A stretch of 64,000 nucleotides of DNA, taken from assembly GCA_033239005.1 (NCBI GenBank), contig BSQZ01000025.1:7172001-7236000 (forward strand), given 5' to 3'. Made by a program: the position numbers and the translations under genes. The notes beneath the pieces were generated by a model that was not told the origin of the DNA, ran no database searches, and saw only the letters and a program-made list of their open reading frames with translations. The stretch is from Lamellibrachia satsuma. Its lineage: Eukaryota > Annelida > Polychaeta > Sabellida > Siboglinidae. Shown in pieces: positions 1,755 to 60,198 of the stretch. Numbering within the stretch: the first letter of the stretch is position 1; each line of letters begins with the position of its first letter.

Positions 1755-1884
1755 CTGGTCCAAGATGTCATGTCTGAGCACTGGACCGTAGAGGGTGGTG
1801 CCGGACGCTCCACCCATGTTTTGATGCTCCCACTGGGAGTTGTTAGTCGCTGTGATGATCAGTTGCTCAGTCCGATAGAATGGC
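1755..1884 (-). CDS. NPC1: NPC1 exon 5
   Basis: Acceptor ctttgcag, donor gtaact; 130 bp. It completes the T of exon 4 and continues PFYRTEQLIITATNN, ending GPVLRHDILDQ in phase 0. The acceptor and first 11 exon bases belong to a 28-bp array extending into the upstream intron. The donor is duplicated 25 bp downstream (1730). Confidence 0.92.
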
Positions 1885-4800: not shown

Positions 4801-7800
4801 GTTGACGGCAGTGATCGCTGTATCTTTGCCTTGTGATTTAGTCTTGTTCGCATTCATAAACTGGCTCTGGTGCGGATCACACGTGAAGTAGCAGTACAGA
4901 TCAATGAAGTTGCGTTTGCAGGCCGGACAGCGATTGAGAAAGCTTATCGGCACCTTTAGGCTGCTGTCTAGTTTGATGATCTGATCAGCGCTACAGCATG
5001 TAAGTGGGGGTGTTCCTGGAATCAAACATGGCATAGGGTCGCATAACACCCAAGTTCTCTGGTTCAGCAGGTACTATCCAGTATGATGTTGGGATTCTAA
5101 ATGTTGAAATGTTAAAACATTAAAACACCATAATTTATATAAAAATAACAATTTCGCAGTGCACGGCCCTAAACATGCTTGGTAACATATTGTCATCCTA
5201 GACATAATATTTTTTTAAATACTATATATTTCAGAAATGCAACATTATACATGGTCTAGTAAACCTACAGATGGACACGTGACTGATTCACCGACCAACA
5301 GTAATAACTGCTGTAATCAATACATAAAACAAACATGAAATTATACCTTACAATTTGCTGATTTCAGATCCTACATGCAAACATTTTGCGAAATTAACCG
5401 TTCACCTATATTTCAGTTATCACCTGTCTGCAGATAAATGATTGCATATATCCGTTGCCGTATTTGCTGTTAAAGTGAAACTAAAGTTTTCGGCTTATGC
5501 ACCTAAGAGTTACTAAAACATAACCATTGTAACTACATTTAAGAATATCACGCCAGAGGTTTACTAGGGAAACTTTGTTGAATACACATCTTAATTTCAT
5601 GGGCAGCGTCATATTGTTAGATAACACTATGTCATGAGTGTGGTTGAATTTAGACTAAAAAATTAGAGTCCAACACCTTAATCACTAGGCCACGGCTGCC
5701 CCCTATCATGAGTGTGGTATTCTAGCTATATTCACTCGGCAAATGAAAATATATTCGTATACACCTATTCCTATCAGGGTTGGAAAAAAATTAAGATTTT
5801 TTTATCAGGTTTTTTATTTCATCATCTCTTTTAGGTGCATAGCCCTAAAACCGTGTATTTTGTTTTGTCTTAAAATAACAAATAAACACTTCTGAACTAG
5901 TAGAGCAGAAACTGTGAAACATTTAGGCCAGTTATAAACGTAATTTAGTTAATGTAAAACTACATCATTTTAATAAATTTTTTAATGCAATCTTGATGTA
6001 TCTCATACCAGGAGCTTACCATCGTTGGTGACAAACTGTGGACAGAGCTTACCATCGTTGGTGGCAAACTTTGGACAGAGCTTACCATCGTTGGTGACAA
6101 ACTTTGGACAGAGCTTACCGTCGTTGGTGACAAACTGTGGACAGAGCTTACCATCGTTGGTGACAAACTGTGGACAGAGCGTCTTGAGAATGCTCAGCGC
6201 CCGAGGGTCTGTTAGCTTCTGAGCAGGTCCGTTATATTCACAATTATATTTCTTGCCGCATTCCTTGTACCACACGCAGTGTCCTTCGTCCTCGCCATGG
6301 CTGCTTGCCTGCTAACAAGAAAGACAACTGACAAAATCTGAGATGTGACAGGGCCGAAGGATCCAACTTCTTGAGCTACACTGTGTCAACTGCTTAGCAG
6401 TCGATGTTCCGGGTATCCAATGTTCCTTAGAAAATAGAGATCAAATGTAACTTGTGGCTCATTTGACAAATCGTTGGATCATAATTAACAAAGTGGCTAG
6501 TGTTCCGGAATATTATCTGATACGCTCAAATCTGACAAAGCAATGATACATAATTATTAGAAAAGTATAGCTAGGTCTCTTCTTTTCTTCCAATGATCTT
6601 CCAGATATTTTTAGTTCAGGAAGGCAGTTATATTCAGACCTGGGGTCAATTACATTGTAATTGTAATATTAATAGTAACGATAATTTGTTTCAAGTAATA
6701 GCAATAGATGGAACAGAACACAATGTAATAGTAATATAAGGCAGTGTAATAGTAATTGAGCTATTACGTTTCTATAACAATTGGGATTAATGCTGGCTTA
6801 TTTTGTGTTAGCTCCAACAGCCTACAAAGACAATGGGTAAGACAACCAAGGCTATGAAGCCAGGTACAGTTTACACAAACAACTGTATTGGTTCTTTGTA
6901 TAATTTGGTCAGCAGAAGCAGTTCAAAGGACAAACTCTGACAATAGGTGTGACACCTCATGCAGCACAACTACATTCTACTATAAACTCCAAACAAAGCC
7001 ATGATTGTATGCGAGCAACAGCAAAGGACATATCTTGGCATCACACGATGAAAGGATACACTTCAAACAAGTAACTGTTATTATCTGGTTTGAGCAAATA
7101 TGAAATGAGTCCTTGTGTGCAGGGCTGGGTCCAATTATGTAATTGTAATTGATTACAGCAAAATTGTGTAATTGTAATTGATTATGGTTTCAAAATGTTG
7201 CTGTAATTGTAATTGTTATATTTTGTATTTTATTTCAATTACAATCCATTACAGTATGTTTCACAAACTACCTGAATGAATTGTCAATAAAAATATAATT
7301 TAAGTCGCACATGAATTGAAAATCAAGACTACTAATAACACCTGCTTATATATTTATATTTAAGTCTCAGTATTCACTGTCTGGTGGGTACTGGTCAGTG
7401 GTGCTAGTGGTGGGTAGCCTTAGCAGTTAGCCTTTTCAGTAAGTTGGTAACAGCCAGGAAGCAATAAACAATGCACAGACATTGTCAGACAAAGGCTAAG
7501 CTGGTATGCAAACAACATGGAAAGACCTGTAGCCTGATATTGCTTCAGAAAATATCAGCTCAGTAAAACATTGCAGAGTTAGCAAGCCAATTACACCCCT
7601 TGTGATGTGGTGGGTAGGAGACAGGTCAGGTGGCAAGGACCGTTTACATGGCCTCTCTTCCCATTCCCAACTCACACAAAGCAAAGGGCAGACCAATTAA
7701 GAATGTCAGCTTAGAGCAGGAGCTACAACCTCAAAGTAAACACATCATAACCTATTATTAGTATTTTCCAGAAAAATTTAAGAAATGTGCACGGATAAAT

Positions 7801-15390: not shown

Positions 15391-16250
15391 TTTTAAACTC
15401 GTAGGTTACACTTCAATACATCGGTCACGCCTACGGTTTCGCTACTTGTGGTTGTCAAACTACGCTTCACGCTCTAAATCTTAACTAGAGTATCATTCAC
15501 CACTTTGTTTGGAAAATGAATCAGATGCTGTCAGGTGATCGGTCGTACAATAGAAAGTAATAACTTGGAACACGGCATCTGAAATAGCATCCTTACTGCA
15601 TAGTGCCAAGTGGCTCTTTGATAGTGCTAGCTCAGTGATTATATTATTTAAATAACAGGAAGTGCTTTTTTTACAATTACACACTTTACGATGCATATAT
15701 TAAATTATGCCATTAGCCATTAATTTTGGTACCCCAGAAAAGAAGGCATCATGAAATGTCATCGCAATAATGGTCATAGCATAAACGTTATGTTTACTAA
15801 TTTGAGTTATAATGTTTAATTAAACTTTCGAATGATGTGTTATGATACTGTGTCAGCCTTCCTTTAAGAAAACATACAGTTAGGCCGGTAGCGCCATTAA
15901 ATGTATGCGTATGTAAAGATAAACATTGATTAAAGTGTTATATATTTCTTCAATGTGAATTTATATCTTGACTTCACTTGACTTTTAAATATAGGCTATG
16001 GATATTGACAAACTTATTGAATCGAGTCACAGGGTTGGACTCGAGTCGCACATGTTTGTGACCCATTTTAGTCAGGTTAGGTTTTCTGTACATAAAGTTT
16101 ATTAAAACATTATTGTTTATTTGTGTGTATTATTTCACATTATCGACATATATTTAACAAGATTTAACAAGATTTGCCATCCAAGCCAAAGGCCCAGATG
16201 GCAAGTGGACAAGGAAGCCATTGGCTTATCGAGAGTCCAACAATGTTCAC

Positions 16251-19117: not shown

Positions 19118-19119
19118 TT

Positions 19120-20345
19120 CTAGTTTAAAGAATGTTTACTTCCAAAAATATTTGTCATTGTACCCAAGTCGCTATCTACTGCAGCTGAAAGTTTGTCCGC
19201 GAATACTGCCGCCCCCTTTCCACTTAAATGAAGCCCATCCTTCATGTACATATCACCCCTCCCAACAAAATTTTCCCACAAATCCACAAATCCAACTTCC
19301 TCTTCCCTACACAGCCTCTGGACTAACATGTTAATTGCCATCCCCCGACAATTTCGATATTTATGACCCCTCCTGCCCATCACAGGTAAAATCCCTGACA
19401 GTTTTACCTGCTCAACCCGCGTCTGTTTTAGTGTTCTGACCAACTGCCTATATTTCCTAACTATGGCAGTTGTACCCTCCCTCTCTACGTTATTTGTCCC
19501 TACATGTACTAAAACAGATCCACCCTTACCCGAGCCTACGATGTTTTTTACCCTCTCAGTTATCGCCTCTATTTTGGCTCCAGGCAAGCAGACCACCACA
19601 TCATCTCCCTTGTTTAAGACTCTGTCGGTCTTCCTAACTATCGAATCCCCCACAAACACCCTCGCTCTCTTCCTCACCCCCTCTATCACTGCTGCAGAAT
19701 AACTCTTCCTTTCGATCCCCTCCATCACATTCTGTCCTGACCCCTTCCCTTCCGTCTCCCCCACTCCCTTCTCCTTCCCTCCTGTCTCCCCTACTCCCCT
19801 CTCCTTCACTCCGGTTGTTTTCCCTCCCGTCTCCCCCACTCCCTTCTCCTTCCCTCCTGTCTCCGCTACTCCCCTCTCCTTCACCCCGGTTGTCTTCCCT
19901 CCCGTCTCCCCCACTCCCTTCTCCTTCCCTCCTGTCTCCCCTACTCCCCTCTCCTTCACCCCGGTTGTCTTCCCTCCCGTTCCTTTCCTTCCCGTCTCCT
20001 TACGTCCTGTCACCTTCCCTCCTCTCAGCTTCCTCCCAGGCTGAGGTGAGCTCTCCCTAGCATCTCTTGTGTCTTTCCCCACTTTATCGTCTACTGTTCC
20101 CTCACCGGAACTACTGGCACAACTCCCCTGTTCCCTTCCCACCATTGCCACAACGAGCAGTCTCAGCTCTTCCAACTCCACCTCTATTTCCTTCATCCTT
20201 GCGCATCCCCTACACTCAAAATTAAAACTATCTGCCTGGACCTCAGCCCAGGACTTTTCGCACCCAGACTTGACGAAATCTACCCAGTTACTACAACTGC
20301 CACAAATTACGTGCCTTGTGGCCTTGTGGCTAACAGAATTAGTAA
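19120..20345 (-). CDS. CR1 ORF1: zinc finger, K/G-rich linker, SGNH esterase
   Basis: Open from the 5' truncation to the stop at 19,120. The first part has ATRHVICGSCSNWVDFVKSG and FECRGCARM, paired cysteines of the PHD-like finger known in CR1 ORF1. A low-complexity linker of GETGGKEKGV/GGKTTGVKERG repeats (about 84 bp per unit) follows. Then the esterase: RARVFVGDSIVRKTD (nucleophile Ser), VLVHVGTNNVEREG (Gly/Asn oxyanion-hole block) and MYMKDGLHLSGKGAAVF (catalytic Asp/His). An open frame predicted upstream of 20,345 is host sequence. Esterase and PHD-like domains are established for this LINE clade. Confidence 0.85.
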
Positions 20346-20542
20346 CATATTCTATGTTCCTTAATTGACAACATAAATTCAGGCATGTACCCCGTACAGT
20401 GGCACATACATCATCGAAAACCGGCTCTTTTGAATTTTTTTTCAAAAAAATTAATATCTTGTACACGTCACAAAATTGGAATGGTGCTCGTAGAGAAAAA
20501 ACTGTGCACATACACATTCATGTGTGCAATTCAGACAGATTA

Positions 20543-43700: not shown

Positions 43701-46067
43701 CCTGTCTACCTCTCCCTGTCTACCTCTCCCTGTCTACCACTCCCTGTCTACCACTCCCTGTCTACCTCTCCCTGTCTACCACTCCCTGTCTACCACTCCC
43801 TGTCTACCTCTCCCTGTCTACCACTCCCTGTCTACCACTCCCTGTCTACCACTCCCTGTCTACCTCTCCCTGTCTAACACTCCCTGTCTACCTCTCCCTG
43901 TCTACCACTCCCTGTCTACCACTCCCTGTCTACCTCTCCCTGTCTACCACTCCCTGTCTACCTCTCCCTGTCTACCACTCCCTGTCTACCAGTCCCTGTC
44001 TACCACTCCCTGTCTAACACTCCCTCTCTACCTCTCCCTGTCTACCACTCCCTGTCTACCTCTCCCTGTCTAACACTCCCTGTCTACCTTTCCCTGTCTA
44101 CCACTCCCTGTCTACCACTCCCTGTCTACCTCTCCCTGTCTACCACTCCCAGTCTACCTCTGCCTGTCTACCACTCCCTGTCTACCACTCCCTGTCTAAC
44201 ACTCCCTGTCTACCACTCCCTGTCTACCACTCCCTGTCTACCTCTCCCTGTCTAACACTCCCTGTCTACCACTCCCTGTCTACCACTCCCTGTCTAACAC
44301 TCCCTGTCTACCACTCCCTGTCTACCACTCCCTGTCTACCACTCCCTGTCTACCTCTCCCTGTCTAACACTCCCTGTCTACCACTCCCTGTCTACCACTC
44401 CCTGTCTACCACTCCCTCCCAGGCTGTCATATGGTTCTCGGTTGTTGTGTAGTCTGTGAAGGCTGACTTGTTAGTGGTGGACTGTGAAGGCTGACTTGTT
44501 GGTGGTGGACTGTGAACGCTGACTTGTTGGTGGTGGACTGTGAACGCTGACTTGTTGGTGGTGGTCTGTGAACGTTTCTCTCCACTCCTCTTGTATTGTT
44601 TTTTTGGTGCATTCTCCACATCTTTCTTGTGTTCATCTCGTCTGGTCTTACACAATCTCCCTGTCTCTCCTATGTAGGCTGTGCCACAACTCACAGAATT
44701 TGGTAACTAGTTCACCCTGTTCATCCGGTTCTACTTTGTCCTTTATTGTGATGATTCTATGGCGCCTGCACTGTGTTTCTTGATCCATCTGTCTGGGGCT
44801 CCATAGTGCTGGTTATGGGGCACTTGTAGAGCACCTAGGAAACAGTTGGTTAGTTATTCTGTGTGCATTCATTGTCATCATGTTCCAAGGGTTTATCACT
44901 TGGTTTAGGACTAAATAACAATGCGATAACATTATTGTGTATGTTCACAGTTAATACAATAACATTATTGTGTATGTTCACAGTTAATGCAATAACATTA
45001 TTATGTATGTTCACAGTTAATGCAATATTATTATTGTGTATGTTCACAGTTAATGATATGTGGAAATTCAATGGAATCTAGTAAATTGACTCACTTTTGT
45101 TTTTTCAAAGATAGATTGCCCATTTAAGTCACACTATTTCCCAAACATGTAAGTAACTCTGGGCAAGAAAGCTTAAATTACTCTGAATAGTGTAATACAG
45201 AGTGTTGGATGTAAATCAAGTGATACCATTCTTTCTGGAACTTGTACGTGCATGTGTACCAACACAATGCAAACAGACAAACACAGAACATTGCCTTGTG
45301 TGGTTCTTAAAGTCTCAATGTTTAGAAAAGTTGTACAGCAATTTGTATATAATATTAATAATTTTAGAAGTTATCAGATTGATGTACAAATCAATCAGTA
45401 ATTGCTAAGTGTGCTGAAAGGTTCAACAATGGATTGTCACATTTTTATTAGTTTTCCGATATGAAAATAAAAATATGTGTTTGCAATAAAATTTCAAACA
45501 GGTGTATTTGTGTTCAGAAAAAGTAAAACTTAAGACGTTTGTCTGATGGATCAATAGAATAACATTCATGATAATTTAGGTTCAACTGGCCGTTGGGTGT
45601 GAACTTGTTTTAGCTGTCTGCCTCCACCCTTGAGAGATGCTATTTCCCCCGGTGCTTGGAGACGTTGCTATAGCAACCACGATATCCAGTCATGTCTCTC
45701 AAAAGTGCAGAAAGTTGGCTTCAATGAGAAGAAGGTATGCAGTAGTAATAATGGCACTGTGGCCTAATCTAACAATTCATTATTATTTTATTTGTAGTAC
45801 ATTAGTTGTGATAATGCAGTACCAACTCAGCTCTGTATGACATGGAACGTGTAATCTAGGATAGTAAGTTTGTTAGTACTACAAAGTTAGTACTTTGTAA
45901 GCACTATGAAATGTACTAGGGTATTTGCCCATTACAATGATCAGTTGAAGCAATGCTTCTCAACCTATTTAATCATCAGTTTTCTAGCTGCATTGCTTGA
46001 TGATCATTGCTGGCTGGCTGGCTCACTGGCTGGCTCATTGACTTGCTGGCTGGCTGGCTGGCTCGCT

Positions 46068-46105
<38 letters not shown>

Positions 46106-49100
46106 TCAGTCTACAGAGTGGCTGGCTGGCAATTTTAGATAGAGTCCACCTAGCTGTTATGATAATGTTTGTTCCAACTAGACTGTGTTATGTGTAGGAC
46201 GTGTTTGGTGCTGTGATCATCACTGCCGCCAGCTCTGGCTTCTGTCTTGGCAGCTGTAATTGGACCATTCACTCAGACTACGAGAAGGTACTGTCTATGA
46301 CCTCCGTGTACAAAAAATGTTTTGTCAGAAATAATGGTTTTGTAAAAATGTAACAACATGGCAATATAGGGATTTTTTCTAGGATTTAAAAATTTTTAAA
46401 TTGTCTTGTGTAAAAAAATAAAAATCTGTTTTTATGTGGACAAGAATGCTTAACTGTATGTAGCACTTATTTTTTTAGACCTTTATAAAATCTGACTATT
46501 TAGCCAAAACTAAAATCACCCTCTTCAATCAATTGGTTTACCAGTAATCGATCATGTATAAGGTTTGTTGATAACCACTTTTGCATTTTTGTCTCTAAAT
46601 TTTGACCAGATCCAGTGTAAAATAAGTTAATAGTTTGTCCGATGATTTCACCAAAACTACTGAATAACTAAGTTGTACAAGTGAGCTACCATGTCATAGT
46701 GGATACTAGATATGTTCAATTGTTTGTGAAATTCATCTGAAACGGAACAAGCAAAAAATCAAATTGAAGAGGCATCTTTAAACAATATGGTTTGGGGAAC
46801 ATAACGTTGCTGTATTATGTGTTTCCAAAGTAACATGTTGATGCATATGTCCTCAGATTGGATACATCAGTGGTTCTTCAACGTTAACCACGCACCCAAA
46901 GGTAGGGGTATAAAAGACATATTTTCTTTATTTCCTTATACAGTAGTACCTGCCCTGAACGGACACTTCTGTATCCAAGCAAAAGTGTCACTATATCACA
47001 TGGCAGGTGTCCCCTCATTGGAGGGACAGGCATGTTGGAGTGGAAAGTACTCTTTCTCACAGAGGGTGATAAATGAATGGAAGAAACTGCCAAATGATTG
47101 TGTTAATGCTAGTAGTGTGAATATGTTTAAAAATAGAATTGACAGATATTTGATAAGGGCGGGCTACCCATAGATGATAAAATTGTTGGACTCTCGATAA
47201 GCCAATGGCTTCCTTGTCCACTTGCCATCTGGAATTTGTTGTTTGGGATGGCAATCTGTTAAATCTTGTTAAAAAAAATTAATAATACATAAACAGGCTG
47301 TACAGTAAGGATATAACTGAGGTACATATACCACAAATAAGGTGCGTTAAGTGTTCCCATGTCTGCCACCAGGGAGCTACTAAACAACAGCGACCGCTGC
47401 CCGCTGCACCAAGTCCAAGAACGCTGTCGAAGCCACTGTGCACTGTCTTATATGACAACACGCAGTTTATAGAGCTTATTAAATGAGTCAATTAGCATCA
47501 ACATGTACAATTGTTTAATGTCACACCCTGTTTAATAGTTAACTGAATAAAATACATGTTTGTGTACCATTATGGAATGACGATGTACTGAACTAATAGG
47601 CCTATGAATCGAAAATAATAACCAGGATTTGAGCAGCCGAAATCGTATATGAGTTGACACATGCAGTATGTAAGTTGATTAAACATAGAAAATGACAATA
47701 GGCAGAATTAATAATCATTTCACCTCGATTTTCAACTGATCTCGACCAAAGTATAAATTTATGACACACCACTTAGCATCGATTCATCGTTTCATATACG
47801 GATAACGAATTCGTATTTTCGCGCACTGGTAGCGCCTTGGGTTTGGCATTTGGCATGTTGGTTTTGCGTCGTTTAGATTGGAAGCATGCCATTTCACCCC
47901 AGTTTCATACTAATACTTCATACTAAGTGAAGCCAACTTCAGCGATTGATGTCGGCGGCAGCGTCAAACAAACAACATCTGGCAGCAGAAAATCGGAGTC
48001 CACGACCAACATCCTTATATCCGAATCCGCGACAGAACATTGTTTTTTCCACTACACACTGCACTGTTTTCCCACTACACACCACACCATTTTGGAAATA
48101 AAATATTGCGAAAAAAAACACAAAAATAATGATTACTGTCCGCCTTAGCATGGACAGAAAACCAAAATATCCTGTCCGCTGTCTGCGTTCACCAGGTGTC
48201 CCCTCATCAGAGGGATATTAACATAGTAAAACAGTCCGCACATTGAGAAAGTGTCCTGACATAACAGGTATCCGCTCACTGGGTCCGTTGAAGGCAGGTA
48301 CTACTGTATACACAGTTATGATGCTTTTTGCTTCAAATAATTCATAAAACCTCAAAGTTCTAAAATCAGGTTTGCCAAAAACCTTGAGCAATATCATGAA
48401 TGTATATAATAGCCATATGAATTTTATTAAGATATTTACAACGGACTATGTAGAAAGTAAGATTTGTATCTATCTTTGTCAACAGAACAACATTTAACTG
48501 GCCACTTGTCCTTTTCAGTCTGATTTTGTTTTATTATTTTTTCACCTTTCATTGATTAATCTCCCTTCAGTTTATACAGCAGAAGGACCCTTTCTTTCAC
48601 TGTCCAGTTTCCTACCATTTGCTACATATTGCATCATTGTGGTCCTCAGCCAATGGACCAGGCCCCACTGCGTAACAGTGACGTCCTCATCATGTGTAGT
48701 CTCAGTCAGACTCCCATGGCCAACCCAGACGCCATGATTGGAGAGTTCTGTGTCAACGCTGGTGAGTTGTTGGTGGTTGGAGGGTATCTTAAGTAGCTGA
48801 AGAGGTAATTGATTCTGCTCTTCAGTCACATTAGCAATGGTTCAGTTATGGGCTATGCAAAAATATTGTTTTTCATGCTCGTAATAATAAATTATGTTAT
48901 AAAGCTGGTTGCTTCAACATATCATGTATTCTTATTGGCCATGTGAATATCAAACAGAGCAACATGTAACAGCCAGTGGTGAATACTCAGTTGATTCACC
49001 ATCCAAACCTACTACAATGGCAACAGTGCCCTTAATAGGTGTTCCCTTCTCTCATACATGTAACACTACATGCGACTCCACATTTCAGCAATGACCTTGA

Positions 49101-52100
49101 AGAACGGCGGCAATGTCCTTGTTCCGTGCTACCCATCTGGTGTGACCTACGACCTCTTCGAGTGCCTGTCAGGTCACCTTGAGAGTTGCGGGCTGCTCTC
49201 AGTACCAATGTATTTCATCTCGCCAGTTGCAAAGAGCAGCCTAGCATATTCTAACATCTACTCTGAATGGTACGTTCAGTGTGAAGCACATGCTTGCTTT
49301 CGTTTTCTCTTTCAGAATTATTTCAAAATATATTGCAACTCATTTCTGTTTTGCAACAAACTCTTGATGCTCCATGATGTATTTTATTTTAGAATATATA
49401 ATGTTATATTTTAATTTACTAAGGTTTGACTAACAGGTTCTCCTTGTTATGTTTGAAAATAGAGTGTAAAATCTTAGTGTGTAAAAAGCTAGATGTTCGT
49501 ACTGTCACTCACTGACACTAACATCAGACAGGATAGGCTGTCAGTATGCTGTTCTTGTGGACACAAAGTGAAAAGGATGAGAATATTGAACTGTCACTCA
49601 CTGACACTAACATCAGACAGGATAGGCTGTCAGTGTGCTGTTCTTGTGGACACAAAGTGAAAAGGATGAGAATATTGAACTGTCACTCACTGACACTAAC
49701 ATCAGACAGGATAGGCTGTCAGTATGCTGTTCTTGTGGACAAAAAGTGAAAAGGATGAGAATATTGAACTGTCACTCACTGACACTAACATCAGACAGGA
49801 TAGGCTGTCAGTGTGCTGTTCTTGTGGACACAAAGTGAAAAGGATGAGAATATTGAACTGTCACTCACTGACACTAACATCAGACAGGATAGGCTGTCAG
49901 TATGCTGTTCTTGTGGACAAAAAGTGAAAAGGATGAGAATATTGAACTGTCACTCACTGACACTAACATCAGACAGGATAGGCTGTCAATGTGCTGTTCT
50001 TGTGGACACAAAGTGAAAAGGATGAGAATATTGAACTGTCACTCACTGACACTAACATCAGACAGGATAGGCTGTCAGTATGCTGTTCTTGTGGACAAAA
50101 AGTGAAAAGGATGAGAATATTGAACTGTCACTCACTGACACTAACATCAGACAGGATAGGCTGTCAGTATGCTGTTCTTGTGGACACAAAGTGAAAAGGA
50201 TGAGAATATTGAACTGTCACTCACTGACACTAACATCAGACAGGATAGGCTGTCAGTATGCTGTTCTTGTGGACAAAAAGTGAAAAGGATGAGAATATTG
50301 AACTGTCACTCACTGACACTGACATCAGACAGGATAGGCTGTCAATGTGCTGTTCTTGTGGACACAAAGTGAAAAGGATGAAAATATTGAACTGCCAAAA
50401 CCGCTGGTTACATATGTAATGAACAATATGAAGGAATCTATTTCAAACAGTACTTTCAACAACTTTGTAAAGAGGCTGACTTGTGTCAAAATGGTTTTCT
50501 GAATGTGATAGATATATATCCTGACCAACTCTATAAATACTGCATGCTTTATGTATATGTTTCGACTGACTACAGTGTTGTATGCTGGGGAATGTTGTCT
50601 CACAGGTTGTCGACTGGGAAGAAGAACAAAGTCTACCTCCCTGAGCCTCCCTTTCCCCATGCAGAAGTGAGTCCTCTTTCTAAATCATTCCATGTTTATG
50701 GCGTATATGGTTTCTTGTTTTCTACCACCAGAAGCTAATTGAACTTATATGATTGAGCTGACTGTATCCTTTGAAACTTACATTAAAAAGCCCATCTATT
50801 CAGATTGAACACTGATCCAGGACATCAGCAATAACAGAGAACCATCATCTACTGGAGTAGGTTGCAGAGGCGATGTGTTAGGAGCTAACAAAACTAGTCT
50901 AAAGACAACCTTCAAATCACTTGGTATAAAAACACAACAGACAAAAGTGAAACAACTAAATCTATGTTTGACTACCACGATTCACTGTTCAGTAACTGTT
51001 CATTTACACAAATTTGTTCATCATCTATGATTTACTACTAAAGTAAAGTATTTGGTAGTTCACTTAATTTAAAGCAGGTATTTGAGTAATTTTTCTACAC
51101 TTCGTTATATGTAGCCAGGGTATGTACATCTAAATGAAATGATATCCTCAAATGTGTTCTAGAACTGCCCATGACAGACGAACACGATGGCCTCCCTTTA
51201 GCAACATGACAGACGAACATGATGGCCTCCCTTTAGCAACATGACAGACGAACACGATGGCCTCCCTTTAGCAACATGACAGACGAACATGATGGCCTCC
51301 CTTTAGCAACATGACAGACGAACACGATGGCCTCCCTTTAGCAACATGACAGACGAACATGATGGCCTCCCTTTAGCAACATGACAGACGAACACGATGG
51401 CCTCCCTTTAGCAACATGACAGACGAACACGATGGCCTCCCTTTAGCAACATGACAGACGAACACGATGGCCTCCCTTTAGCAACATGACAGACGAACAC
51501 GATGGCCTCCCTTTAGCAACATGACAGACGAACACGATGGCCTCCCTTTAGCAACATGACAGACGAACATGATGGCCTCCCTTTAGCAACATATTCATTC
51601 ATACAGATTTTGTTGCAATGCTATTATAACGTTAAGCAAAATTGCATCATCTTCAACATCTAATGTCCAACTAAAATTTGCCCAGATTGACTACAGAAAA
51701 TCAAGTAAAAATACCTGTTTTTTTTTCAGTTGGTGAAGAACTGCCGACTTCGCCACTATGCAAGTCTTCACGGTGGGTCCATCAAAACATTACAAAACTG
51801 ATATTTATTTGCATGCACTTGATGTATGGATGTTCTTTTGATATATTTGAGACATTAATGGCAGATAGATATTGACATCAGATCAATGCAGAAATTAGTC
51901 AGCTAGACAACATAATTTTAATTGTTGATTCTGCCGCATTTATTACTGTAATTTTGAGATGAATGAAATTAACAGACTAATTAAAAGATAATTGCAGTGT
52001 CTGGCTAAAATGGTCTAAGTCGGGTTCTTTCAGATTAATATAATAATATATTCGTGAGAGTCTTTGTTTTGAACTGATGATCTGTGATTCATGTGACAGT

Positions 52101-55100
52101 TGACAAAGCCGGGTCATATCTCATAATTAAACCAGTTAACGAAGCCGGATCATATCTCATAATACAACCAGTTGACAAACCCAGGTCATATCTCATAATA
52201 CAACCAGTTGACAAAGCCGGGTCATATCTCATAATACAATCAGTTGACAAAGCCAGGTCATATCTCATAATACAACCAGTTAACAAACCCGTGTGTTATC
52301 TCATGATACAATCAGTTGACAAACACGGATCATATCTCATAATATAAACCAGTTGACAAACCAGGGTCATATCTCATGATACAACCAGTTAACAAACCTG
52401 GGTCTCATGATACAACCAGTTGACAAATCTGGGTCAAATCTCATAATACAAACAGTTGACAAACCCAGGTCAAATCTCATAATACAACCAGTTGACAAAC
52501 CCAGGTCATATCTCATAATACAACCAGTTGACAAACCCCGGTCATATCTCATGATACAACCAGTTAACAAACCCGGGTCATATCTCATGATACAACCAGT
52601 TGACAAACCTGGGTTATATCTCATGATACAACCAGTTGACAAACCCGGGTCATATCTCATGATACAACCAGTTGACAAACCTGGGTCATATCTCATGATA
52701 CAACCAGTTGACAAACCCGGGTCATATCTCATAATACAACCAGTTGACAAACCTGGGTCATATCTCATGATACAACCAGTTGACAAACCCGGGTCATATC
52801 TCATGATACAACCAGTTGACAAACCTGGGTTATATCTCATGATACAACCAGTTGACAAACCCGGGTCATATCTCATGATACAACCAGTTGACAAACCTGG
52901 GTTATATCTCATGATACAACCAGTTGACAAACCCGGGTCATATCTCATGATACAACCAGTTGACAAACCTGGGTTATATCTCATGATACAACCAGTTGAC
53001 AAACCTGGGTTATATCTCATGATACAACCAGTTGACAAACCCGGGTCATATCTCATAATATAATCAGTTGACAAACCCGGGTCGTATCTCGTAATACAAC
53101 CAGTTGACAAACCCAGGTCATATCTCATAATACAACCAGTTGAAAACCTGGGTCATATCTCATAATACAATAAACATGCAGCATAGAACCATCATGAATG
53201 TCTCAGTCCTATGCCTGTAAGAACATCAAATTTAAGACCATTCATAAGAGTTCTGTATTACTTCTGTTTAACCAAAACAGTCGACACACATATGGTCAAT
53301 GGCTGTTGACTCTGTCATATATTTTGTCACTGGCTGTTGACACTGTCATATGTATGGTCACTGGCTGTTGACACTCATATGTATGGTCACTGGCTGTTGA
53401 CACTCATATGTATGGTCACTGGCTGTTGACACTGTCATATGTATGGTCACTGGCTGTTGACACTGTCATATGTATGGTCACTGGCTGTTGACACTGTCAT
53501 ATGTATGGTCACTGGCTGTTGACACTGTCATATGTATGGTCACTGGCTGTTGACACTGTCACTGTGTCCACCATTCAGATGGATTTAACAACGATCTGAA
53601 GACTCCAGCTGTTGTGTTTACTGGACACCCGTCACTACGATTTGGAAATGTTGTCCACTTTCTTGATTTGTGGGGCAAATCAAGTTCAAATACCCTCATA
53701 GTCACCGGTTAGTTACCCTGCTATATATTTGTCATATTTTAGTTATAACTAAAAGTTATATAAGCATAGCTAACTTGACAAGATGAAAAGTGTTGTCAGT
53801 TTTAATTAGTATTTCATATTCTTCATTTCCTTGTGGTGTTGATTCTCAAAACATTTTCATACTTTTAGCTTACAGAGATTTCAAGCACTGAGAGTTGCTG
53901 TAATTAATATACAAGATTATTTCATTGTACCGTGTCAGATATTCATGTAACAAGTTATCTGTGATGATGACAACAATGCTTGACCTGTGTACATAATTAC
54001 TTTTAAATTGTGGGTTTTTACAGTTATTAATTATTGTAAAATTGACATTGATTATAGAACCAGACTTTGCCTACTTGGATGCACTAGCTCCATATCAGCC
54101 CTTGGCAATGAAGGTTAGTAATGGCACTTGTTAACATATTACTGCAGATCTAAAATCTCTGGTCAGTTAGATATTGAACAGTAAAACTAATGCAGTAACT
54201 ATTGTAATAAACCATTTATGTTTATGTCATCATCTTGATCACAATTTTACTAAATCTACTACATCTAATTTTAAAACATGGACTGTTTTTCAGAAACGTT
54301 TATTATTTCAGGTGAAATTGTCAAAATTTTGCATTCTTGTGTTTTCAGTTATTTTTATAATAGTGGTTGTTTTCAGTTTCCTGTAATGCATTTTCAGATT
54401 CATGTTGTTGAAATTAGTTAATTTTACCGCCCACACGTGGTATGTTTCCCAGGTTGCCTACTGCCCAATCGACACAAGTCTTAGTTTTGCGCAGGCAAAC
54501 AAATTAATCAAAGATCTGAAGCCACTGCACATGATCGTCCCCGAGCAGTACATAACGCCACCTACATCTATGCCACATCGAACGGACCTCATCATTGACT
54601 GTGTGAGGAAACAAAGTTATATTGTAATGACGATAAGTTTATTGTTTGCCACAATATTCGTAAATTACATATATACTTTTTGATCAGGCAACAAAAACAT
54701 ATATTAAAAGTTCCTCCTCAATTCGATTAGTTTGCTAGTCTCATTTCAAATTCATTTTGTGAAATATCAAACCTACCTAGTATCCTCTGCAACATGCTAG
54801 TTCGTTTGTGCAACTTTTATATGTAGTTTTTTGTGAAATCATCAGACAAACTATTAAATTACTTAAGTGAAGTGAAAATGGAAACACTGAAAACTCACGA
54901 ATTTCCCCCTTGGTGACATTTTGTAACTTTGTCATGTGATTGATGAGAGGATGGAAGTCATGTCCATGATTGGTATTGACCCGCAAAGTGTTTACCATTT
55001 TGGGTATCCAGTAGTTTGATCTGATGACTACAGTAAATTCTTTTGATGATTTGAAAAAAAATATAATTTTTTTATTAAATCGACTGCAAATGTCACTTAG

Positions 55101-58100
55101 ACTATTCAAACTACATATTTGGACATAAATGAACCTGATTCGTGATAGGACATGTACTAAACAGAAAAAAGTCTTTATCAGTATCTGATTAACAACTGGC
55201 CCATCTAAATGTGTATGCTTGCATGCGCAGATTAATGTCTAACAAAGAAGTGGTTTATATTTACAAATCATCGCACACAGTAGGAGATTGTGTCAGTCTT
55301 GTTATCACTTTCTCTCTGTCTCCTTCCTCCTCTTATATGCAAATTAATATGACATGACTAAACTGTTAAATTTGTTTAAAATTTAACCCAAAAGATTTTG
55401 TCTGACAGTTCACACTTCTTGACATTGCCATGTTTCTTGAACGAACATTTTGTCAGACAGTTCACACTTCTTGTCATTGCCATGTTTCTTGAACGAACAT
55501 TTTGTCTGTCAGTTCACACTTCTTGTCAATGCCATGTTTCTTGAACGAACATTTTGTCTGACAGTTCACACTTCTTGTCATTGCCATGTTTCTTGAACGA
55601 ACATTTTGTCTGACAGTTCACACTTCTTGTCATTGCCATGTTTCTTGAACGAACATTTTGTCTGACAGTTCACACTTCTTGTCATTGCCATGTTTCTTGA
55701 ACGAACATTTTGTCTGTCAGTTCACACTTCTTGTCATTGCCATGTTTCTTGAACGAACATTTTGTCTGACAGTTCACACTTCTTGTCATTGCCACGTTTC
55801 TTGAACGAACATTTATGTTGCTTTTCCTCCCCAGGAGCCGCCACCAGCAACCATCAGGCAAGCGGAGGTTATCACGCCCCCCATTAAACGCCGCTTTGAA
55901 AAAGTTGACCTTGATGCTGAGGTATGGACGCAGTGACCAGGAGATCTGTGACGTTTTGACTTTCTACAATACAACAATTACAACAGGAATTGTTGATTAT
56001 TAATTAGTAGGGCTGTAATGATTCATTGATGCATCGATTAATTACAATATTTTCTCACGGTGCAATACTCGATATATTTTACAAGAATCACGATACATAT
56101 AAGATACATTCAAACATATTTTCCAAAGTGTTATTGTGTTGAAAATTGAAACTACCGGTACATCAAAAACAGGCCTTGGAAACTGTTACGAGTCCACCCA
56201 TTTGTAATGTAGTCAATGCCAACACAGTCAATTCGCTTGCTACCTGTTGAAATCTTGCTTCATCAGTAGTTTTAGTTATTACAGTATTATTTGTTCTGAA
56301 CATGTAGACATTTACAGCTAGTTTGTGTGTAATGCAGTTTATTTTGTCAATCTTGACAACTGTATCATTGTTGTGTTGTGATATGTATATCGTATTGTGA
56401 CACAAATATTGTGATGTCTGTCATATCATAGCTTAATGTATTGTAACGGCCCTATTATTAATTAGAAAGGTTAGAATCCTGGAGTAACACATTTATATGC
56501 TGTTTCCAACCAGGAATTGAAATGTAATAGCTTTTTCACACATGTTAAATATTTCACACATGTTAAAAATTTTCTCCTGCATTCGTCTCGTCCAACAGTT
56601 TGCCGCCAGTCTTGCCCCATGCGAGGTGAAGCCAGGCGTCTCGGTTGCCATGGTGACAGGCACTCTGTCAAACAGGGATAACAAGTTTGCATTGAAGGTG
56701 GGTTGTAGGTGATGAAATTGTGTGCATGCATGCATGTCTGCATGTCTGTCTGTATGCATGTGTCGGTGAGAGAATCACAGTTAGAGAGAGATATAGTTTT
56801 GACAGAGTGGGATTGTAGACCTACTTACAGACTTGACTAATTCTTCTATAATACCATTATCTATTTCAAACCTGTTCAGTTGATGCTTAAAGAAAGACAT
56901 GCTTGCCACTGAATAAAGATCTCATCATTTTAGACACCTTCACGTTAGCCACAAATAGACGAGCCTATTGTAGAATTATTTCATGGATGCTATTTTTGTT
57001 TACCATCTTTCTTTGCACAAATAACCAGTGTCAACCATTTTGTGAAGTTTTTTATGGTGATGGTTTTTACCATAAAATCATATATTAATATACACTATGC
57101 TTTTAATAATAGGACAGTTGTCTGTTTATGAATATCAACCTTGTCATTTTTTACATTCGAACAAAATTTATTGGGATCAGGCGTTCATGGGCATATTATA
57201 AACGCATAAAATTATGTCCCCTCCCCACACAATGTCAACATGATATTTGCCCTGAAACAATATATACAAATTAAACAGAAATCAGTCAACGTATATTTTA
57301 ATGTGGTTCATTAAAACACCCTTGGGCATTCAGAACATAATATACACTACATAGCTTGATTTCACAATAACACCATCAGACTTTGACCTTTAGATGAACT
57401 CATCCTTGACCTCATAGAGGCATGTTATCAGTTAAACTCATCCTTGACCTCATAGAGGCATGTTATCAGTTGAACTCATCCTTGACCTCATAGAGGCATC
57501 TTATCAGTTGGACTCATCCTTGACTTCATAGAGGCAACTTATCAGTTGAACTCATCCTTGACCTCATAGAGGCATGTTATCAGTTGAACTCATCCTTGAC
57601 CTCATAGAGGCATCTTATCAGTTGAACTCATCCTTGACCTCATAGAGGCATCTTATCAGTTGCACACATTGTTGTTCTATCAACAGCCTGTATCCAAGAC
57701 CACAACTCCATTGACAAGTAAGAAACGCAAGCTAGATGACTGTGAGATCAGACAGCCTACATACGTCTGGGGAACACTTGATGTGTACGAGTTTGTGGAC
57801 AACTTGAAGAAGGTTGGTTCTGTTACATTGCTCTCATTTTTGATGTAGACATGAATATGCATGCGCTATAAACATTATATTGACCTTGCCATTCAGCATG
57901 CAGTATACACATGATATTGACCGTGCCATTCAGCATGCAGTGTAAACATGATATTGACCATGCCATTCAGCATGCGGTATAAACATGATATTGACCTTGC
58001 CATTCAGCATGCAGTGTAAACATGATATTGACCGTGCCTTTCAGCATACAGTGTAAACATTATATTGACCTTGTCATTCAGCATGCAGTGTAAACATGAT

Positions 58101-60198
58101 ATTGACCTTGCCATTCAGCATGCAGTATACACATGATATTGACCTTGCCATTCAACATGCAGTATATACATGATATTGACCTTGCCATTCAGCATGCAGT
58201 ATAAACATGATATTGACCGTGCCATTCAGCATGCAGTGTAAACATGATATTGACCTTGCCATTCAGCATGCAGTGTAAACATGATATTGACCTTGCCATT
58301 CAGCATGCAGTGTAAACATGATATTCACCGTGCCATTCAGCATGCAGTGTAAACATTATATTCGAGTTGAAACATTCAAATAATTAAAAAGATAGCATTC
58401 AAATTATATTTAAACATTCTAGTTCATTCAAACTTGTGCAGTCACGATGTTATAATAGATATAGTTTATACTATATATCATGATTTAGAACAGATATAGT
58501 TTATACCATATAACATGATTGAGACTTGATATATTTTATACTATATATATCATGATTTAGAATAGATATAGTTTATATTATATAACATAATTTAGACTAT
58601 ATATAGTTTATACTATATAGCATGATTTAGAATAGATATAGATTATACTATATAACATGATTTAGAATAAATATAGTTTAAACTATAACATAATTTAGAG
58701 TAGATACAGTTTATACTATATATATATCATGATTTAGAATAGATATAGTTTATACTGTATAACATGATTTTATGTTAAAAACAATCTGACTTGGCACCTT
58801 CAAATTGTATGTTTTTCTGCTAATTGTCAATGTGTCCAATTGTAGCAGTCCATGTGTCCTATTGTAGCAGTCCATGTGTCCAATTGTAGCAGTCCATGTG
58901 TCCTATTGTAGCAGTCCATGTGTCCTATTGTAGCAGTCCATGTGTCCAATTGTAGCAGTCCATGTGTCCTATTGTAGCAGTCCATGTGTCCAATTGTAGC
59001 AGTCCATGTGTCCTGTTGTAGCAGTCCATGTGTCCTATTGTAGCAGTCCATGTGTCCTGTTGTAGCAGTCCATGTGTCCTGTTGTAGCAGTCCATGTGTC
59101 CTGTTGTAGCAGTCCATGTGTCCTATTGTAGCAGTCCATGTGTCCTGTTGTAGCAGTCCATGTGTCCTGTTGTAGCAGTCCATGTGTCCTGTTGTAGCAG
59201 TCCATGTGTCCTGTTGTAGCAGTCCATGTGTCCTGTTGTAGCAGTCCATGTGTCATGTTGTAGCAGTCCATGTGTCCTATTGTAGCAGTCCATGTGTCCT
59301 GTTGTAGCAGTCCATGTGTCCTATTGTAGCAGTCCATGTGTCCTGTTGTAGCAGTCCATGTGTCCTATTGTAGCAGTCCATGTGTCCTGTTGTAGCAGTC
59401 CATGTGTCCTATTGTAGCAGTCCATGTGTCCTGTTGTAGCAGTCCATCATGGATGTGACCGTAGAAGACAGTCCCGGGGGCGGCCACACTGTGCACTTGG
59501 TGGGTGATTCAAGTAGACACAGTTATGTTTGACGTTCTCCACTTTAAGAGAGACTAATGTCTTGTTTTCTCATTGAATGATTTCACTTATGAGACCTTCT
59601 TTTTTGGAGTTTCTTGCTTTGTTGCTGTCAACTCTTACCAATCATGCTATGTCTACTCAACAACCACCCTATTTGGCTAGTCTCCTGCATCTTTCAAATA
59701 TCCGCAGGCAGCTCAGATCGTCTGTCTCACAACTTGTTCCTATAACTAAGCTTAGCCTGGGCAGGTGCTTTCTCTGTAGCTGCGCCCAAAGTCTGGACCA
59801 AACCCCCATCACCTTAAAATCATTTGAAAATATATCCGGCTACCTTCCGCAAAAATCTCAAAAGATATATTTTTTTAATTGCAATTCCACCATAAATCCT
59901 CTCCAGTCTGTTGCTCTGATGATGACTTTTGTGTATCCCTGTTCATGATGTCATGCTTAATGATTCCAGCTTGTTGTGGCTCTGAGCTTGGGTTCCTGAC
60001 ACGCACGCGCCTGCGCCTGGTTAGGTGCAGGGGTTGTACCCAGGTTATGTAGTGTACAGTCTTTATTTTGTTGTTTTGCAGCCGAGCGAAGATTCACTGA
60101 TACAGATCGAGGATGGATCAACTCACATCATCTGTGGCAACGAGTCACTGCGAGTGCAGCTGCGTGACACACTGCTCAAATGTCTGGAGAAATTATAG
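37734..60198 (+). CDS. INTS9: INTS9, Integrator complex subunit 9 (complete, 21 exons)
   Basis: Nuclear scaffold partner of the INTS11 endonuclease in the Integrator complex, which cleaves snRNA and many nascent transcripts. Twenty-one plus-strand exons with GT-AG introns join without a frame break to 1,971 bp, 656 residues, close to the human protein. The MBL fold is at the N-terminus and the beta-CASP insert in the middle (about 290-450), with a basic SKKRKLDD segment in exon 19 and the C-terminal INTS11-binding part at the end. The zinc motif of active relatives is lost ([10 protein letters not shown], residues 105-114), as expected for this pseudoenzyme subunit. Exon 1 codes for only three residues. 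Introns carry at least fifteen tandem arrays, four of them overlapping a splice junction. Confidence 0.97.
37743..39020. other. INTS9 intron 1, no recognised element
   Basis: AT-rich. I see no gene on either strand and no clear repeat before the 39,021 hairpin. Confidence 0.5.
39021..39058. repeat. Perfect 17-bp inverted repeat (hairpin)
   Basis: Arms ttagggtcactgtttca and its exact complement are separated by 4 bp. In INTS9 intron 1. It may mark a transposon end: tatagtggactctgcttaac follows. Confidence 0.85.
39889..40065. repeat. 36-bp in-frame minisatellite spanning the INTS9 exon 2 acceptor
   Basis: Five copies with the acceptor-like CAG ending at 39,909, 39,945, 39,981, 40,017 and 40,053, exactly 36 bp apart. 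The unit contains tgtccactgcag|tactgt. The frame stays open through all copies and repeats Tyr-Cys-Leu-Ser-like residues. Confidence 0.94.
40054..40181 (+). CDS. INTS9: INTS9 exon 2
   Basis: Encodes [40 protein letters not shown] and VQ, the first MBL strands. Acceptor ttcattgcag is the last of five 36-bp repeats, all open in this frame. Donor gtaagg. Confidence 0.95.
40196..40946 (+). mobile_element. 5'-truncated CR1 copy in INTS9 intron 2
   Basis: Starts at tttgggaaatgtaaatgcct, 14 bp after the exon 2 donor, and runs through the reverse transcriptase C-terminus ([60 protein letters not shown]) to the shared 3' tail. The frame is intact for 200+ codons, so the insertion is young. Sense orientation. 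Confidence 0.92.
41276..41345 (+). CDS. INTS9: INTS9 exon 3
   Basis: Encodes [20 protein letters not shown] then LGG. Acceptor ttttttttcag, donor gtgagt. Less conserved than its neighbours. Confidence 0.88.
41588..41650 (+). CDS. INTS9: INTS9 exon 4
   Basis: Encodes [20 protein letters not shown] and K. Acceptor tttgcag, donor gtaagg. Its last 29 bases are repeated with the donor in the following intron. Confidence 0.92.
41622..42155. repeat. 62-bp minisatellite spanning the INTS9 exon 4 donor, 9 donors
   Basis: The unit holds agtgagcctgagtttaatgt, acctaag|gtaagg and about 30 bp of intron. Donors fall at 41,650, 41,712, 41,774, 41,836, 41,898, 41,960, 42,022, 42,084 and 42,150. The last two copies have diverged. 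62 is not a multiple of three. Confidence 0.96.
42269..42408 (+). CDS. INTS9: INTS9 exon 5 (degenerate zinc motif)
   Basis: Encodes [40 protein letters not shown] and PTLHIG. The position of the MBL His-x-His-x-Asp-His motif reads NLHCMM. Acceptor gctccag, donor gtgggt, which seeds a 32-bp array. Confidence 0.96.
42405..42985. repeat. 32-bp G-rich minisatellite starting at the INTS9 exon 5 donor
   Basis: About 18 copies of gtgggtggggtgctggagat plus gaggtggaacag. The real donor GGCAG|gtgggt is the first; most copies repeat acag|gtgggt or a close variant. Strongly G-rich on the coding strand. Confidence 0.93.
43212..43298 (+). CDS. INTS9: INTS9 exon 6
   Basis: Encodes [20 protein letters not shown] then KWKQANIQ. 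Acceptor ctgctcag, donor gtaggt. Confidence 0.95.
43575..44420. repeat. 14-bp pyrimidine-rich minisatellite, about 60 copies
   Basis: Unit ctccctgtctacca/ct in INTS9 intron 6. Almost all pyrimidine on the plus strand. It gives long Ser/Leu/Pro/Tyr open frames in all forward frames; these are not genes. Confidence 0.96.
44453..44575. repeat. 28-bp tandem repeat, 4 copies
   Basis: Unit ctgacttgttggtggtggac plus tgtgaacg, in INTS9 intron 6, next to the GIY-YIG relic. Confidence 0.92.
44576..44830 (-). pseudogene. Penelope-like retroelement GIY-YIG endonuclease relic
   Basis: The minus strand reads [20 protein letters not shown] then [17 protein letters not shown], the GIY-YIG pattern (AYIGETGR...R..EH) of Penelope-like elements. 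Upstream, in another frame, [15 protein letters not shown] fits the region before it. Frameshifted and truncated. Confidence 0.75.
44919..45060. repeat. 33-bp tandem repeat, 4 copies
   Basis: Unit aatgcaataacattattgtg plus tatgttcacagtt, in INTS9 intron 6. Confidence 0.92.
45614..45734 (+). CDS. INTS9: INTS9 exon 7
   Basis: Encodes [20 protein letters not shown] then [20 protein letters not shown]. Matches the family WRRCY block. Acceptor gttttag, donor gtatgc. Confidence 0.95.
46008..46128. repeat. (GGCT)n-rich microsatellite
   Basis: Interrupted ctggctggctggctcgctga type repeat in INTS9 intron 7, ending about 70 bp before exon 8. Confidence 0.95.
46198..46287 (+). CDS. INTS9: INTS9 exon 8
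   Basis: Encodes [20 protein letters not shown] then [10 protein letters not shown]. Acceptor tgtgtag, donor gtactg. Confidence 0.95.
46857..46901 (+). CDS. INTS9: INTS9 exon 9
   Basis: Encodes [15 protein letters not shown]. Acceptor gtcctcag, donor gtaggg. A pogo-like element begins 40 bp downstream. Confidence 0.94.
46941..48306. mobile_element. Non-autonomous pogo/Tigger-like DNA transposon
   Basis: Termini cagtagtacctgcc are identical for 14 bp in inverted orientation, and similarity continues (gaacggac / caacggac). Flanked on both sides by TA, the mariner-superfamily target. No transposase is recognised. A CR1 fragment is inserted inside. In INTS9 intron 9. Confidence 0.8.
47041..47275 (+). 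mobile_element. Short CR1 3' fragment nested in the pogo-like element
   Basis: Encodes [20 protein letters not shown] then [20 protein letters not shown], followed by the CR1 tail gttggactctcgataagcca and gttaaatcttgttaaaa. Confidence 0.9.
48650..48761 (+). CDS. INTS9: INTS9 exon 10
   Basis: Encodes [20 protein letters not shown] then [17 protein letters not shown]. Acceptor gtcctcag, donor gtgagt. Confidence 0.95.
49089..49269 (+). CDS. INTS9: INTS9 exon 11
   Basis: Encodes [40 protein letters not shown] and [19 protein letters not shown]. Beta-CASP region. Acceptor catttcag, donor gtacgt. Confidence 0.96.
49497..50395. repeat. 89-bp minisatellite, 10 copies with dimeric higher-order pattern
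   Basis: Unit starts actgtcactcactgacacta in INTS9 intron 11. From the second copy on, units alternate between gacacaaag and gacaaaaag, giving a 178-bp higher-order period. The 67-codon open frames here are repeat artefacts. Confidence 0.96.
50606..50666 (+). CDS. INTS9: INTS9 exon 12
   Basis: Encodes [20 protein letters not shown]. The [12 protein letters not shown] block is highly conserved. Acceptor tctcacag, donor gtgagt. Confidence 0.96.
51176..51592. repeat. 35-bp minisatellite, 12 copies
   Basis: Unit atgacagacgaacacgatgg plus cctccctttagcaac in INTS9 intron 12; the only common variant is cacg/catg. Each unit ends in an acceptor-like ccctttagc. Confidence 0.96.
51730..51772 (+). CDS. 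INTS9: INTS9 exon 13
   Basis: 43 bp encoding [14 protein letters not shown] plus one base. Acceptor ttttttcag, donor gtgggt. Confidence 0.92.
52096..53167. repeat. 36-bp minisatellite, about 30 copies
   Basis: Unit ttgacaaacccgggtcatat plus ctcatgatacaaccag in INTS9 intron 13. The main variants are cccggg/cctggg and gtcat/gttat. Both strands are open for long stretches because 36 is divisible by three. Confidence 0.97.
53283..53560. repeat. 31-bp minisatellite, about 9 copies, ending 18 bp before INTS9 exon 14
   Basis: Unit tatggtcactggctgttgac plus actgtcatatg, some copies lacking a gt-containing piece. Confidence 0.94.
53579..53707 (+). CDS. INTS9: INTS9 exon 14
   Basis: Encodes [40 protein letters not shown] and IVT. 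Acceptor ccattcag, donor gttagt. A 31-bp array ends 18 bp upstream. Confidence 0.96.
54058..54113 (+). CDS. INTS9: INTS9 exon 15
   Basis: Encodes [19 protein letters not shown]. Acceptor gattatag, donor gttagt. Confidence 0.95.
54453..54602 (+). CDS. INTS9: INTS9 exon 16
   Basis: Encodes [40 protein letters not shown] and [10 protein letters not shown]. Acceptor gtttcccag, donor gtgagg. Confidence 0.95.
54710..55150. mobile_element. Internal part of the MITE-like family (copy D)
   Basis: Similar along its length to 20,590-21,020 in the same orientation (for example tttgctagtctcatttcaaa and caacttttatatgtagttttt versus caacttttgtacgtagttttt). It lacks the terminal motifs. In INTS9 intron 16. 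Confidence 0.75.
55392..55812. repeat. 52-bp minisatellite, 8 copies, ending 22 bp before INTS9 exon 17
   Basis: Unit acattttgtctgacagttca, cacttcttgtcattgccatg, tttcttgaacga. Copies are nearly identical. Confidence 0.96.
55835..55921 (+). CDS. INTS9: INTS9 exon 17
   Basis: Encodes [20 protein letters not shown] then FEKVDLDAE. Acceptor cctccccag, donor gtatgg. Confidence 0.93.
56599..56697 (+). CDS. INTS9: INTS9 exon 18
   Basis: Encodes [20 protein letters not shown] then [13 protein letters not shown]. Acceptor gtccaacag, donor gtgggt. Confidence 0.94.
57395..57662. repeat. 38-bp minisatellite, 7 copies, ending 24 bp before INTS9 exon 19
   Basis: Unit gttatcagttgaactcatcc plus ttgacctcatagaggcat, with gtt/ctt variants. 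Confidence 0.95.
57687..57812 (+). CDS. INTS9: INTS9 exon 19
   Basis: Encodes [20 protein letters not shown] then a segment ending [17 protein letters not shown] resembles a nuclear localisation signal. Acceptor tatcaacag, donor gttggt. Confidence 0.93.
57865..58365. repeat. 37-bp minisatellite, about 13 copies
   Basis: Unit ttgccattcagcatgcagtg plus taaacatgatattgacc in INTS9 intron 19, starting about 50 bp after the exon 19 donor. Confidence 0.95.
58448..58770. repeat. AT-rich 35-62 bp tandem repeat
   Basis: Units of catgatttagaatagatata gtttatactatata type with variable length. Each unit can form a tatagtttatactata hairpin. INTS9 intron 19. Confidence 0.85.
58833..59452. repeat. 22-bp minisatellite spanning the INTS9 exon 20 acceptor, about 28 copies
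   Basis: Unit tgtcctgttgtagcagtcca plus tg, with cctg/ccta/ccaa variants. Each copy contains ttgtagcag|TCCAT, the exon 20 acceptor and first five exon bases. The last copy is the functional one. Confidence 0.96.
59443..59499 (+). CDS. INTS9: INTS9 exon 20
   Basis: 57 bp encoding [19 protein letters not shown]. Acceptor tgttgtagcag is the last of about 28 copies of a 22-bp repeat. Donor gtgggt. Confidence 0.9.
59500..60081. other. INTS9 intron 20
   Basis: A 123-codon open frame (59,577-59,948) resembles a decayed LINE reading: [28 protein letters not shown] [16 protein letters not shown]. The similarity is weak, so I assign no element. Confidence 0.4.
60082..60198 (+). CDS. INTS9: INTS9 exon 21 (C-terminus)
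   Basis: Encodes [38 protein letters not shown] and TAG. Acceptor ttttgcag. The ESLRVQLRD block is typical of the C-terminal domain that pairs with INTS11. Confidence 0.96.

Follow-up and report, generated by a model that had tools for sequence, protein, structure and literature searches.

The genome of the siboglinid annelid Lamellibrachia satsuma raises the question of why minisatellites in three neighbouring genes should contain the very borders at which exon meets intron, and whether chance alone would put them there. The stretch analysed, here called the window, comprises 64,000 nucleotides (positions 7,172,001 to 7,236,000 of contig BSQZ01000025.1, assembly GCA_033239005.1; the assembly comprises 735 Mb in 279 contigs). 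Minisatellite arrays were located with Tandem Repeats Finder (TRF) in the window and in 100 kb on each side of it, 264 kb in all. Exon borders were predicted from the sequence only, by reading frame and splice consensus, and genes were named by their matches in the PDB: INTS9 (E 8e-239), NPC1 (1.7e-87) and PDIA6, which matched several PDIA6 chains (for example 3w8j, 3.9e-54) while the top score fell to the related DNAJC10. The three genes are arranged as follows (window coordinates).

1755..6287, minus strand: NPC1 exons 5 to 2; the gene runs on below the window start
28205..35460, minus strand: PDIA6, 10 exons modelled
40054..60198, plus strand: INTS9, with 18 modelled exons; two or more small exons are missing

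As assembled from the window, INTS9 shares 90% protein identity with its counterpart in Ridgeia piscesae, a vestimentiferan tubeworm (Siboglinidae, Annelida), 59% with that of Capitella and 53% with that of Branchiostoma floridae. The original prediction was made from the letters alone and its allusion to amphioxus hinted at a lancelet, a hint that these identities do not bear out. Among the best 120 matches listed for the NPC1 protein there was no siboglinid, and Rfam and tRNA scans of the window gave zero matches each. Genome searches for the GFP family and for COX1 matched nothing, the GFP control being likewise without a match. Some INTS9 junctions were checked against the Ridgeia protein. 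A self-written exon-chain finder recovered most of NPC1, in a chain of 19 exons that extends over the window edge; one of them was later dropped. This finder put a penalty on codons within arrays, and exons that hold arrays may therefore be missed. Before counting we removed an ab initio NPC1 exon without homology at joined coordinate 86077 (joined coordinates are window coordinates plus 100000), together with exon-finder predictions of low score or on the wrong strand. Small exons are missing from NPC1 (between joined coordinates 83911 and 78850) and from INTS9, which makes the chance expectation given below slightly too low.

It had been claimed that seven arrays contain the exact exon-intron border and that their units are unrelated, and both statements stand. 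TRF places the border base inside the array in 7/7 cases, distributed over NPC1, PDIA6 and INTS9 as follows.

1875..2040, minus strand: 28-bp array, 5.9 copies, NPC1 exon 5 acceptor; first exon base 1884, 10 bp exonic
6012..6180, minus strand: 33-bp array, 5.1 copies, NPC1 exon 2 donor; last exon base 6152, 29 bp exonic
34101..34554, minus strand: 35-bp array, 13 copies, PDIA6 exon 3 donor; last exon base 34542, 13 bp exonic
39898..40065, plus strand: 36-bp array, 4.7 copies, INTS9 exon 2 acceptor; first exon base 40054, 12 bp exonic
41617..42155, plus strand: 62-bp array, 8.6 copies, INTS9 exon 4 donor; last exon base 41650, 34 bp exonic
42406..42976, plus strand: 32-bp array, 17.9 copies, INTS9 exon 5 donor; last exon base 42408, 3 bp exonic
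58826..59447, plus strand: 22-bp array, 28.3 copies, INTS9 exon 20 acceptor (numbering of the original prediction); first exon base 59440, TAG|CAG, 8 bp exonic

The INTS9 exon 5 array is a marginal case, its exonic part being only 3 bp (CAG). When the seven units were compared by BLAST with each other and with four found later (n = 11 units), the best cross-unit match was 17 nt long (E 0.046).

Several further candidates were rejected. A TRF row at 53333-53614 reaches into INTS9 exon 12, but its exonic part is conserved coding sequence to which a 93-bp row extends only weakly; a 31-bp row near the same exon stops 17 bp short of the acceptor. At the donor of INTS9 exon 2, a repeat of 13 bp and 2.1 copies scored 40, under the score threshold, and was left uncounted. 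Two NPC1 borders (joined coordinates 74275 and 91480) have an array edge 3 bp inside the intron and are not crossed.

Three more border arrays sit in the flanks of the window.

Donor of a trypsin exon: 48-bp array, 14 copies; the chained exons together match Pfam Trypsin (7e-46)
Donor of NPC1 exon 8 (our numbering): 35-bp array, 44 copies
Acceptor of a PAN-like exon: 31-bp array, 22 copies, 4 bp exonic; PAN_1 at 21.0 bits against a cut-off of 21.4 bits, from an exon pair made of neighbouring predictions joined by hand

The 264 kb thus holds 10 border arrays, at six donors and four acceptors, each at most about 1.5 kb long. For a view of other contigs, protein-kinase exons were sampled: out of 139 matches to protein kinases genome-wide, 20 stretches (L044-L063) holding 22 exon matches were chosen among short open frames, blind to repeats. 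A border array was present at one of the 22 exon matches, a CDK2-like exon (L052) with a 69-bp, 4.9-copy array across its acceptor, the border being read by us. Seven arrays lie near these 22 matches, for which a hand estimate gives about 0.6 expected crossings against the one seen. At 15 further kinase loci (L029-L043), no predicted exon border was seen by eye to lie within an array. The proportion originally put forward, about one exon in five, holds in the window (7 of 32 modelled exons) but not elsewhere: it is 10 of 88 in the curated 264-kb set, window included, and one in 22 in the kinase sample.

Minisatellites form 170 clusters that occupy 28% of the 264 kb, and their share is 28.9% in modelled introns, 29.4% in other DNA and 0.9% in modelled exons. 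None of 107 arrays lies wholly in a modelled exon, where 11.1 would be expected, a comparison that is partly circular outside the homology-checked genes because the exon finder penalised codons inside arrays. Within the 264 kb, single 22-kb bins reach a minisatellite share of up to 52%. The share is smaller at the other places sampled: seven loci around a dispersed repeat have 11%, the kinase exon stretches L044-L063 have 7% and the kinase loci L029-L043 have 3%; the 264-kb neighbourhood may be unusually minisatellite-rich.

Whether the borders are crossed more often than by chance was assessed with a null model in which the expansion was removed and one unit per array was placed at random in its own intron, with overlap into an exon allowed if part of the unit stayed intronic. 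The INTS9 exon 2 array was left out of this intron-wise model, since exon 1 was not modelled. For introns in the window (58 borders, 23 arrays), which are the discovery set, six crossings were observed against 2.75 expected (P 0.03). In the remaining introns, those that lie at least partly outside (102 borders, 84 arrays), there were three against 3.02 (P 0.59), and all introns together gave nine against 5.7 (P 0.11; nine against 5.8 in another run). A coarser gene-wise null that includes the INTS9 exon 2 array gave 10 observed against 5.1 (P 0.027). The assertion that chance placement is implausible is thus not supported, as the excess comes from the discovery set and is not repeated outside. 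The overlap of arrays with borders, set against an intron-shuffled control over the 264 kb, exceeds expectation in the discovery set and matches it in the other introns.

A modest border bias is nevertheless possible, and the gene-wise count and three further results point to it. When only arrays of at least three copies are considered, all introns give nine crossings against 4.1 expected (P 0.015), and with at least four copies and a unit of at least 20 bp they give nine against 3.3 (P 0.003), all these thresholds having been chosen post hoc; the stricter filter applied outside the window gives three against 1.5 (P 0.18). Array ends cluster 3-12 bp inside exons (seven against 2.0 expected, P 0.0035, in one of eleven bins). 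Finally, donor-like motifs are slightly stronger in the units of non-crossing arrays than in control DNA (P 0.006), whereas acceptor-like motifs are not (P 0.93).

The exon-proximal (outermost) copy is very probably the used splice site, as had been proposed. The Ridgeia INTS9 protein reads FNVPK-LTMLD, HIGR-LFMEE and NLKK-QAITDVTVED at the junctions of exons 4, 5 and 20, with no repeat residues, as expected with exon-proximal sites, although it comes from another species whose gene may itself be without arrays. The annotated start of the Ridgeia protein falls past the exon 2 border. The outermost NPC1 donor would yield a protein with a single LCP block, as in the human protein. If the nearest inner copy were used instead, a frameshift or a stop would follow in 8/10 arrays and no harm in 2/10. 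In the arrays at NPC1 exon 2 (33-bp unit) and INTS9 exon 2 (36-bp unit), any of the first three inner copies would keep the frame and meet no stop, and at INTS9 exon 2 the whole array is open; the third inner copy of the INTS9 exon 5 array would likewise be in frame and open. Unit lengths are divisible by three in 3/10 arrays, which indicates no frame preference.

Inner copies retain their splice signals. Splice-dinucleotide positions match the consensus at 290/294 positions in the aligned inner copies, compared with 4434/4695 for other positions, and the dinucleotide pair is intact in 143/147 copies (the sum of per-array values). When ranked within its unit, the border pair has a mean midrank of 0.60 over 10 arrays (P 0.13) and is not significantly better kept than the rest, and inner donors and acceptors mostly score about the same as the used site. 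With an unexceptional pair and inner scores that mostly resemble that of the used site, selection on the spare sites, whether positive or negative, is not clearly indicated, and the inner copies look young and homogenised. The suggestion that duplications at borders are selected because a spare site is kept is thus not supported.

Taken together, these data are best accounted for by ordinary minisatellites that are born at random, purged from exons and tolerated at borders, where the exon-proximal site stays in use; we assign this reading a probability of about two in three. Local tandem duplications would arise almost anywhere and then amplify, in keeping with arrays that fill more than a quarter of this stretch of an annelid genome. 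Those wholly within coding exons would be removed by selection, which we infer to be the cause of the empty exons, while a unit that straddles a border would survive, all copies beyond the exon-proximal one turning into intron. Survival would be possible because coding sequence and a functional splice site are both preserved in the exon-proximal copy. Splicing would then have to pick the exon-proximal site among up to some forty equally scoring copies, a choice that exon definition, by which the shortest exon wins, may make.

An alternative is that a duplication-prone process acting at splice signals, for instance on donor-like GT-rich motifs or through RNA-DNA hybrids in co-transcriptional splicing, seeds arrays at borders. 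We regard this as unlikely: the excess in the window (6 versus 2.75) and under the strict filter (9 versus 3.3), the clustering of array ends 3-12 bp inside exons and the slightly stronger donor motifs in the units of other arrays would all follow from it, but it would not lead one to expect the 3 versus 3.02 outside the window, the lack of enrichment of acceptor motifs, units that share only chance-like short matches, or arrays at donors and acceptors alike (6 and 4 of 10). A broader form of the idea is that splice junctions in this annelid lineage are a hot spot for the birth or growth of long minisatellites (about two- to threefold over random placement, for arrays of at least four copies), so that introns grow from their ends and the spliceosome routinely picks the exon-proximal site from up to 44 near-identical ones. 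This we consider doubtful; if true, it would hold for lancelets too, and duplication at borders would be a way in which animal introns generally lengthen.

Selection could also keep border arrays if spare splice sites buffered mutation of the used one. The pair retained in 143/147 aligned inner copies, with inner sites that mostly score like the used site, would suit this explanation, but conservation of the pair does not significantly exceed that of other positions (midrank 0.60, P 0.13). Moreover, with 8/10 nearest inner copies shifting the frame or meeting a stop, most nearest spares could not rescue the protein, and we find the explanation very improbable. Equally slight is the probability that some arrays are functional in that alternative copy choice adds repeat units to the protein (11 residues per unit at NPC1 exon 2, 12 at INTS9 exon 2). 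In these two arrays the unit length is divisible by three and the frame is open over the three inner copies tested, which, with the open, in-frame third inner copy at INTS9 exon 5, would permit such additions; against them stand a nearest inner copy that is harmless in only 2/10 arrays, an outermost NPC1 donor that gives one LCP block like that of the human protein, and multiples of three no commoner than chance (3/10). That the arrays or borders are artefacts of assembly or gene modelling is scarcely credible. The borders come from sequence alone, an ab initio model gave part of the exons and the PAN-like exon only nearly attains the Pfam cut-off (21.0 of 21.4 bits), but the window lies within a 9.4-Mb contig and no border array is longer than about 1.5 kb, both reading frames and homologues are consistent over the junctions, the chained trypsin exons together give a Pfam match (7e-46) and a CDK-like exon on another contig has the same structure.

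The closest known counterparts are the 'mirages' of lancelets, which the original prediction had named and whose sequence-level features are found here. In the accessible text of the reports, these are described for Adh3, the globins BflGb6 and BflGb9, PGBD5 and troponin C, with splicing reported to be undisturbed (PMC3087553, PMC3902484); the Adh3 units measure 10-72 bp as quoted in PMC3087553. Both sets consist of minisatellite-like repeats across exon-intron borders, at donors and acceptors, with overlapping unit lengths. Many but not all mirage copies carry AG/GT, and here 290/294 dinucleotide positions are kept. Lancelet mirages are further marked by unstable length, between haplotypes or in somatic cells. 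The border arrays here are of the same kind as lancelet mirages, in an unexpected phylum. They differ in host and density (an annelid with seven border arrays within 64 kb, where the accessible text on cephalochordates describes single genes) and in that a chance model is applied here and is absent from the accessible text of the lancelet reports. In the portions of the open-licence literature that were accessible, the name was found for no group but lancelets (one pine paper also matched), and no report of border arrays in annelids or siboglinids was found; the Ridgeia genome paper (PMC9921365) ran TRF and its accessible text has nothing on borders.

Related phenomena are described elsewhere, as far as the accessible text of each report goes. 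Internal tandem repeats occur at exon-intron boundaries in human duplicated genes, without the name 'mirages' (PMC2812944); they too have minisatellite units of about 30 bp and may form novel introns, but they lie in segmental duplications, in paralogs that arose recently in primates and frequently have alternative transcripts, whereas the genes here are conserved and single-copy. When introns are gained through tandem duplication of proto-splice sites (PMC2891723, PMC4974935), splice-signal DNA is likewise duplicated, but the new introns appear within exons, whereas here existing introns lengthen at their ends. In earthworm metallothionein (PMC12783039), another annelid case of intronic minisatellites, the arrays lie within intron 1 and, in the accessible text, are not said to include the border.

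Our data extend border-spanning minisatellites from lancelets to annelids and set them against a chance model. The annelid host makes them taxonomically more interesting than was first supposed, when a lancelet was in mind. With the chance model, the border arrays look like tolerance of duplication at splice borders, as modelled exon interiors hold 0/107 arrays against about 11 expected. They also provide natural test cases for splice-site choice, with up to about forty near-identical tandem donors or acceptors of which only the exon-proximal one seems right.

Other features of the region were noted. A 33-bp array of 47 copies at window positions 60776-62335 has a unit with a strong donor-like CAG|GTGGGT, and no exon was found adjoining it. 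The arrays at window positions 55814 and 57669 and at loci L045 and L059 leave about 17-30 bp between their end and an acceptor, as though the polypyrimidine tract limited them. NPC1 intron 4 contains, at about 2190-2400, a dispersed repeat of at least 210 bp that has at least 39 further matches of 84-89% identity on many contigs. Two open frames on the plus strand, at 40154-40885 and 46805-47170, end in a similar closing motif, the first being without a Pfam match, and we take them to be fragments of a LINE-type retroelement. A third open frame, at 11384-11764 on the minus strand, contains ESYFYHRKYQHGRVNIGEWVFGAVER and has no Pfam match; it is perhaps, we presume, a fragment of a DNA transposase. 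In the flank, at about 7254900-7325000 of G000:C25 (L020-L027), there are two inverted paralogous multi-exon genes with matching exons, whose exon model has no border-crossing array. They encode NIDO and VWD domains (Pfam), AMOP just under the cut-off and EGF by eye, and a comparison of their introns would be useful for dating arrays.
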